Positions 15,109 through 15,322 of a stretch of DNA of 18,004 bases are shown here, one piece after another. Both the position numbers and the translations under genes were made by a program. The notes beneath the pieces are model-generated. The model was not told where the DNA came from and did not search any database. It saw only the letters and a program-made list of their open reading frames with translations. This DNA comes from Acidobacteriota bacterium (GTDB taxonomy: Bacteria; Acidobacteriota; Terriglobia; Terriglobales; Acidobacteriaceae), in contig JAJYAE010000055.1 of assembly GCA_021779695.1 (NCBI GenBank), positions 1 to 18,004 on the forward strand. The letters are read 5' to 3'. Within the stretch, counting starts at the first letter, position 1. The number at the start of each line of letters is the position of its first letter.

Positions 15109-15124
15109 GATGACTCCAGTGTAA

Positions 15125-15160
15125 AGGGACGGAGGGACTGAGGGACCAGGAACTAGGGAC
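15125..15160. repeat. Short direct repeats AGGGAC in the alaC leader
   Basis: AGGGAC occurs at 15125-15130, 15133-15138, 15141-15146 and 15155-15160, with spacings of 8, 8 and 14 nt. GGGACCAGG is present twice. On the mRNA strand this is a pyrimidine-rich run of GTCCCT units just before the alaC ribosome-binding site. Role unknown; it could be a protein- or RNA-binding tract or simply slippage-derived. Confidence 0.5.
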
Positions 15161-15223
15161 CAGGGCCTTGGACCGATGGCTTCTGAGAGGCTGGCTGGGA
15201 TTTGGGATGAGAGGAAGCAGTCG

Positions 15224-15310
15224 TTAGGCGGCCGGAGCCGCAGCACGGGCCGCGCACGCGGCTGTGGCCGGCGCGACGATGAGGGTGCGAGGCTGGGCCG
15301 TGGACTGCAT
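15224..15310 (-). CDS. Candidate alanine-rich leader peptide upstream of alaC (28 aa)
   Basis: An ATG at 15310-15308 opens a 28-codon frame ending in TAA at 15226-15224. Twelve of the 28 residues are alanine, and 11 of the last 16 (13-28), as in A-P-A-T-A-A-C-A-A-R. The ORF ends 115 nt before the alaC start on the same strand. A perfect TATAAT lies 6 nt before the ATG, so the transcript may be leaderless for this peptide. The Ala-codon half overlaps GC-rich pairing options (GCCACAGC 15268-15261 with GCTGCGGC 15244-15237, competing with GCCGCG 15262-15257 and CGCGGC 15254-15249). This fits a classical attenuator that senses charged tRNA-Ala, but GC-rich DNA yields Ala codons readily, so chance is possible. 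Confidence 0.45.
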   Translation of the reverse strand: MQSTAQPRTLIVAPATAACAARAAAPAA

Positions 15311-15316
15311 GAGGGA

Positions 15317-15322
15317 ATTATA
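15317..15322 (-). promoter_or_regulatory. Perfect -10 element TATAAT ahead of the alaC leader ORF
   Basis: TATAAT read on the minus strand, 6 nt before the leader ATG at 15310, in otherwise very GC-rich DNA and 14 nt past the VWFA stop. The expected start point falls on the A of the ATG. No good -35 hexamer lies at 15-18 nt spacing. Confidence 0.4.

Follow-up and report, generated by a model that had tools for sequence, protein, structure and literature searches.

Results and Discussion

Organization of the alaC Region

The alaC gene located in the 18,004-nucleotide window (the whole stretch of Acidobacteriota DNA that was analysed, contig JAJYAE010000055.1) is preceded by an ORF encoding a real, conserved leader peptide rich in alanine, and the comparative data suggest that this peptide probably acts in cis to place alaC under ribosome-mediated, alanine-responsive control. 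The features of the region are collected in Table 1. The AlaC protein scored 705.9 bits against the NCBIfam equivalog PRK08175 (alanine transaminase; cut-off 647). The deduced leader peptide, MQSTAQPRTLIVAPATAACAARAAAPAA, has alanine at 12 of its 28 codons, with 11 alanines among the last 16 residues, and its stop codon is separated by 115 nt from the ATG of alaC (15106–15108). An initial annotation of this DNA had described such an ORF directly upstream of alaC, starting 6 nt after a TATAAT box, and both the ORF and the distance were confirmed. The leader ORF is probably translated leaderless, with its start codon predicted at about +1 of the transcript from this promoter (P1). Comparison of the window with the Rfam covariance models gave no family at the gathering score, and the two matches found between 14900 and 15600 were at chance level, both far under that score.

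Table 1. Features of the alaC region and its surroundings in the window.
Feature	Position	Strand	Remarks
Leader ORF	15224..15310	minus	28 codons + TAA; 12 Ala; ATG 15308-15310, TAA 15224-15226; in-frame ORF in 38/39 copies
P1 -10 box TATAAT of leader transcript	15317..15322	minus	Context CGCTATAAT
Hairpin A, candidate competing hairpin, CGCGGC-CCGT-GCTGCG	15239..15254	minus	Overlaps 5' arm of hairpin B; weak
Hairpin B, GCGGC-TCCG-GCCGC	15228..15241	minus	Codons -5 to -1, before stop; 5/5 pairs, 39/39 sequences
Post-stop motif	15201..15214	minus	Consensus CACCTCATCCCAA, window version CCTCTCATCCCAAA; conserved in alignment
P2 -10 box TACACT, adjoining alaC start	15118..15123	minus	TANNNT near start in relatives
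Shine-Dalgarno site GGAG of alaC	15114..15117	minus	SD in 36/37 loci with leader
alaC, alanine transaminase, 395 aa	13921..15108	minus	NCBIfam NF006033 above cut-off; Pfam PF00155
VWA-domain protein gene	15337-17529		Upstream of leader; family TIGR03436, named for Acidobacteria
AIPR-family protein gene	12050-13852	minus	Directly behind alaC; PF10592
Aldehyde dehydrogenase (C-terminal DUF2141), amine-oxidase-type desaturase, glycosyltransferase and CrtO acyltransferase genes in a row	1571-6475	plus	

As to the neighbouring genes, the AIPR-family protein showed a weak likeness, far under the cut-off, to MzaE of the MZA anti-phage system, and the row of genes on the plus strand is one which we take to resemble a staphyloxanthin-type carotenoid cluster. 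Degenerate repeats of the GGTCCCTAGT, CACTGATCACTGA and GCTAACACCGCT types were seen by eye in the spacer at 15124–15200 and also in loci L141, L143, L145, L147, L182 and L191; such repeats may explain the varying length of the spacer between leader and alaC.

Distribution of the Leader and Linkage to alaC

The genome contigs were searched with AlaC and the best 80 loci were used, the closest belonging to metagenome-assembled genomes (MAGs) titled Acidobacteriaceae or Acidobacteriales. Among these best 80 loci the leader element was seen upstream of alaC in two (L003 and L005), and further copies were obtained from 300 genomes of the family searched next. Locus L003 also carries two Acido-Lenti-1 RNAs (RF01687) near alaC, at 5240–5287 and 5858–5905. 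A covariance model of 71 positions (R1) was built from ten leader copies, that of the window included. With R1 at least 33 of the 300 family genomes showed a match at E ≤ 0.05, of which 13 were strong (E ≤ 1.2e-5) and 20 had E > 0.003; at least 36 of 80 genomes from a single Acidobacteriaceae genus (that of genome G267) matched at E ≤ 0.001, with 37 matches in 36 genomes (two in G331), each at E ≤ 1.2e-5. These genome counts are lower bounds, with a limited number of candidates scored per genome and strict filters applied. The named loci of this genus (L001–L005 and L021) come from MAGs throughout. Twelve of the 13 strong family genomes belong to the same genus; in the remaining one (G093) the leader and the start of alaC (locus L148) were found on a contig, C75, that ends inside alaC, and the genome's own alaC match, of 71% identity, is on a different contig. 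The leader-bearing contig of G093 is possibly a stray contig.

Conservation was studied in the 38 strong loci (L141–L153 and L171–L195) plus the window, that is, 39 copies, of which ten had trained R1. When these loci were searched with AlaC by tblastn, 36 of the 38 proved to have alaC downstream in the same orientation, and the two others lie at contig ends; in one of them (L148) the alaC start is visible by eye, and the other (L195) ends too early to tell. By comparison, alaC was found at none of the 17 loci with weak R1 matches (L154–L170).

A search of six genomes with an Ala/Arg codon-run pattern yielded another leader in none of the 30 loci retrieved, and these loci were rejected as leaders and read as chance GC-rich DNA. 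By the rule of a −10 box plus start codon, this type of leader was found in none of 11 ilvB loci and none of 10 trpE loci of relatives, three of which (L235, L245 and L249) have short flanks and may be read at the wrong place. In seven of the ten trpE loci (L246, L247, L248, L250, L251, L252 and L254) a TACACT box was found 6–7 nt before a start opening into trpE itself, a layout which suggests that leaderless starts may be common in the genus.

Conservation of the Leader ORF

A start codon 6–7 nt past the −10 box opens an ORF of 20–32 codons in 38 of 39 copies; of the possible combinations of −10 box and start, the one whose ORF carries most alanines at its end was chosen by hand. The −10 box of the 38 intact copies is TATAAT in 35, TATACT in two and TATAAC in one, the start codon is ATG in 35 and GTG in three, and a G is found two bases upstream of the box in 33 of 38; a −35 signal did not rise above shuffled sequences (2.03 matches versus 2.28 in shuffles). 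The open frame ends at a stop codon by the hairpin termed B in Table 1, with the stop in the hairpin loop in L152 and L153 and one codon later than in the other leaders in L189. The exception is L184 (the same place as L003), a broken copy with a TAGAAT box, no such start codon, TGG in place of the stop, and a mutated Shine-Dalgarno (SD) site of alaC as well. The initial annotation had proposed to check the conservation of the ATG, the Ala codon run and the stop; the place of the start codon, the open frame and the stop persist in 38 of 39 copies, and the outcomes it had named as refuting (no conservation, or frameshifts in close relatives) are absent, apart from this one decayed copy lacking the alaC SD.

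Alanine accounts for 452 of the 944 leader codons (48%), with 7–16 Ala codons per leader, concentrated toward the ORF end, and encoded by GCC (175), GCG (159), GCT (89) and GCA (29). Triplets starting with GC were counted in frames 0, +1 and +2 as 176, 44 and 23, respectively, in the 342 codons at positions −16 to −8, upstream of hairpin B, and as 248, 4 and 6 in the 304 codons at −8 to −1. The N-terminus of the peptide varies and its C-terminus is fixed, as in leader peptides generally; despite the variable N-terminus, codon 2 is CAG, CAC or CAA in 29 of 38 leaders. Taken on this comparison, selection maintains the leader as a reading frame.

The same counts bear on the alternative that survives best, namely that the leader ORF is a cis-acting translation sensor for something other than alanine (general slowing of translation, arginine, or the ligand of an arrest peptide), the Ala run being mainly the code of a GC-rich hairpin. 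Hairpin B does force a part of the run (codons −5, −4, −2 and −1), and arginine is the second commonest leader residue (83 of 944). Against this, the in-frame enrichment in alanine extends upstream of hairpin B, all four Ala codons are in use there, and the linked gene encodes an alanine transaminase. We regard a sensor of this other kind as unlikely, and sensing of alanine as the preferred reading.

Structure of the Leader RNA

Hairpin B, with a loop of 3–4 nt, is formed with all five pairs and is invariant among the 39 sequences; most copies have it over codons −5 to −1. All 38 leaders contain it, against 2787 of 7600 synonymous shuffles, so that it is kept beyond the needs of the peptide. 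The freest of the last six codons is codon −3, which lies in its loop. No covariation was found in hairpin B among the 39 sequences; since the stem never varies, covariation speaks neither for nor against it, and the compensatory stem changes proposed as a check in the initial annotation did not appear. For the whole leader end, folding gave a mean z of −0.16 against synonymous shuffles, with 27 of 38 negative, which is no better than the shuffles themselves. The competing upstream hairpin A can be drawn and is weakly supported by the folding of its segment (mean z −0.47 versus synonymous shuffles; 29 of 38 negative). Of the competing GC-rich hairpins said to overlap the Ala codons, the one at the ORF end therefore stands, being invariant, and its competitor finds weak support.

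Behind the leader stop, the sequence CTCA lies no more than 26 nt away in 35 of 36 loci, and CTCAT is found in 30 of 36. A conserved intrinsic terminator was not found: four of the 38 loci are weakly terminator-like, at differing places, and the window is not among them. By the criterion of an intrinsic terminator, the alaC leader is not a classical attenuator. What had been proposed as alanine attenuation therefore holds as far as a conserved, in-frame Ala-rich leader tied to alaC is concerned; attenuation of the classical type with competing hairpins and a terminator is unsupported, hairpin A barely surpassing synonymous shuffles. The C-over-G skew behind the stop did not clearly exceed that before the promoter (22 of 38, p 0.42), so that a rut site found no positive support.

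Folding of whole leaders predicted the SD to be mostly paired (mean unpaired probability 0.175), its bases finding partners among the 30 nt after the leader stop with a mean probability of 0.37. The predicted registers differ between species, and the duplex energies were not better than those of shuffles (mean z −0.2; 0.25 to 0.43 in another test); for these two reasons a duplex between the post-stop motif and the start of alaC was set aside. The accessibility of the SD barely moved with the position of the ribosome (0.161, 0.175 and 0.203) and was nearly unchanged by shuffling of the spacer (0.175 versus 0.19).

Hairpin B and the post-stop motif are the best-conserved parts downstream of the promoter, as would be expected if the functional part were the RNA or DNA itself (hairpin B plus the CACCTCATCCC motif, for instance as a site for a protein or for Rho), with the ORF translated incidentally. 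The start position, the open frame and the stop are nevertheless kept in 38 of 39 copies despite lengths of 20 to 32 codons, and the alanine bias is in frame upstream of hairpin B; such an element is accordingly quite unlikely in comparison with a translated leader peptide.

Leader Presence and the Mode of alaC Translation Start

An SD site within positions −16 to −5 precedes alaC in 36 of 37 loci with the leader and in two of 24 loci without it, where L204, with GGAGG at or near the ATG, was scored as having no SD (Fisher p 2.7e-13, uncorrected for kinship). The single locus with leader and no SD is the broken L184. A TANNNT box is located 9–10 nt before the alaC start in 32 of the 37 loci with leader, including L189, in which the spacing is 9 nt with the alaC start set right; the other five show CATAAT or CATACT, or have their box further upstream. 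In the loci without leader the TANNNT box is found 6–9 nt before the start in 24 of 24 (19 at 6 nt, one at 7 and four at 9). With the box 6 nt before the ATG, alaC looks leaderless in these 19 loci (L001, L002, L004, L113, L115, L118, L201–L205 and L207–L214, with boxes such as TAAACT, TAGACT and TACACT); the four loci at 9 nt retain the wide spacing, and two of them retain the SD. The 24 rows without leader represent 23 genomes plus the second alaC copy of G347, with the alaC start of L210 moved by hand to an upstream ATG and with L208 and L209, identical in their upstream sequence, counted twice; 21 of the 80 genus genomes had no usable alaC start.

On a tree of alaC DNA (62 rows, 34 with leader, 23 without and five outgroup, with base composition flagged in 23 of the 62) the leader requires 13 changes, at least eight of them on well-supported branches. 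Leader and SD agreed in 6.9 of 8 independent pairs and disagreed in one (p 0.07, range to 0.125), so that the test misses 0.05 when L184 counts as bearing a leader; with L184 scored as leader-absent, a choice made after seeing this locus, 6.8 of 7 pairs agreed and none was against (p 0.016, range to 0.031). For leader and P2-to-ATG spacing, with every row with leader scored as wide, including the five without TANNNT at that place, 6.5 of 8 pairs agreed and none was against (p 0.016, range to 0.06). An earlier tree of the AlaC protein, with nine rows without leader, contained too few pairs to decide. As far as the tree can tell, the leader and the SD of alaC tend to switch together. L184 and L021 are sister alaC loci, and L021 has no leader yet keeps the SD and the 9-nt spacing; the pair looks like a leader loss in progress.

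In a control scan, 109 locus rows representing both Acidobacteriota and Proteobacteria were examined over the 400 nt preceding alaC for ORFs of 12–45 codons with at least seven alanines in the last 14 residues. The 11 positive rows correspond to 10 distinct loci (L005 being the same as L122), all in the leader family, and no such ORF was found in the remaining 98 rows, which include the broken leader L003 and in which a few places are represented by two rows.

A separate gene for a small protein or small RNA which merely adjoins alaC would account for the leader having a promoter box of its own and alaC having P2, and is most unlikely in view of the linkage described above (36 of 38 strong loci, the two others lying at contig ends, and none of 17 weak ones), of the leader being present together with the alaC SD, and of the unconserved N-terminus. 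GC-rich as the region is, a chance Ala-rich ORF in intergenic DNA is practically excluded, being refuted by the conservation and by the 98 other alaC rows without such an ORF.

The reading preferred on these grounds, a cis-acting alanine-sensing leader peptide, can be extended to a leaderless module without intrinsic terminator that evolution switches on and off, alaC changing between leaderless and SD-dependent translation at nearly every independent gain or loss of the leader; this extension seems to us to be evenly balanced between true and false.

Comparison with Known Leader Peptides

Sensing of a pathway's own amino acid by a leader peptide is a textbook form of regulation; in the attenuators of the trp, his, ilv and leu operons the leader peptide is rich in that amino acid. 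The alaC leader is like them in this respect and in having an overlapping hairpin, and differs in showing no conserved terminator with a U run, in its candidate rather than proven competing structures and in its probably leaderless start. The tnaC leader is Rho-dependent, and free tryptophan is sensed there by way of the nascent chain. A functional region immediately downstream of the stop is conceivable for the alaC leader too; the C-over-G skew test gave no rut signal in it.

The nearest system by working principle appears to be that of the leaderless cysteine-rich short ORFs of mycobacteria, proposed in PMC4633059 and treated also in PMC9094748 and PMC13236596; regulation by these polycysteine ORFs was demonstrated by Canestrari et al. 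(2020, Mol Microbiol), according to PMC9031893. Both are short ORFs, leaderless in mycobacteria and probably so before alaC, with a codon run for the amino acid of the downstream pathway, cysteine in Actinobacteria in the one case and alanine in Acidobacteriota in the other, and the alaC leader differs in ending in an invariant hairpin. Leader peptides of cys operons without obvious terminators were reported in PMC1262725.

An alanine-rich leader peptide proposed to sense alanine was described in 2021 in Streptomyces lividans TK24 (AlaL, 22 aa with six Ala; PMC8079986) and called previously undescribed by its authors. AlaL resembles the alaC leader in this description and precedes alaS, the alanyl-tRNA synthetase gene, whereas the alaC leader precedes a biosynthetic gene; the passages of PMC8079986 cited here report no comparative support for AlaL, unlike that given above for alaC. 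The novelty claimed initially for an alanine leader is thus reduced by the AlaL proposal (PMC8079986) and stands for leaders before an alanine-biosynthesis gene, of which none was found in the open-licence literature, mostly in title-level listings; nor was a paper found there naming Acidobacteria together with alanine-leader terms. As a leader that senses alanine and belongs to a gene of alanine biosynthesis, the alaC leader is a good candidate to be the first.

LeuL1 of S. lividans, described in PMC8079986 as leaderless, resembles the alaC leader, itself probably leaderless, in having no typical terminator and in standing before a biosynthetic gene. The LEU element described for leuA of Actinobacteria (PMC1262725) is a conserved pseudoknot, and none was seen in the alaC leader with folding programs that do not model pseudoknots. 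In addition, ribosome stalling at the whiB7 uORF induces a programme including an alanine-biosynthesis gene, and the title of a reference links whiB7 to alanine starvation (both in PMC13236596); a trpL reporter in which two Ala codons replace the Trp codons detects translation inhibitors (PMC5039519).

Proposed Mechanism

In the mechanism that we propose from these sequences, transcription from P1 would start at or next to the leader ATG, so that the ORF would be translated leaderless and the ribosome would meet 7–16 Ala codons toward its end. With enough charged Ala-tRNA the ribosome would traverse hairpin B to the stop and depart; with scarce Ala-tRNA it would pause in the Ala run, and the pause would alter the action of hairpin B and of the exposed C-rich RNA behind the stop. 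The outcome would be more full-length alaC mRNA, translated from the SD site, while P2, next to the alaC start, would maintain alaC at a basal level and could bypass the leader. As a first guess, the effector step may be of the Rho type, transcription ending prematurely past the leader stop with no intrinsic terminator involved. A Rho site at this place would fit the arrangement, yet the base-composition test gave it no positive support, and we give this last step tentatively about a third of the weight, with translational control or mRNA decay as the alternatives.

Conclusions

The leaders offer a natural series of gains and losses, with one copy in decay, along which the leader and the mode of translation start change in concert. 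Leader-peptide control, which in the alaC leader may work without an intrinsic terminator, would reach the Acidobacteriota, a poorly cultured phylum. If the module reading is true, two modes of translation start would be tied to two ways of regulating alaC.
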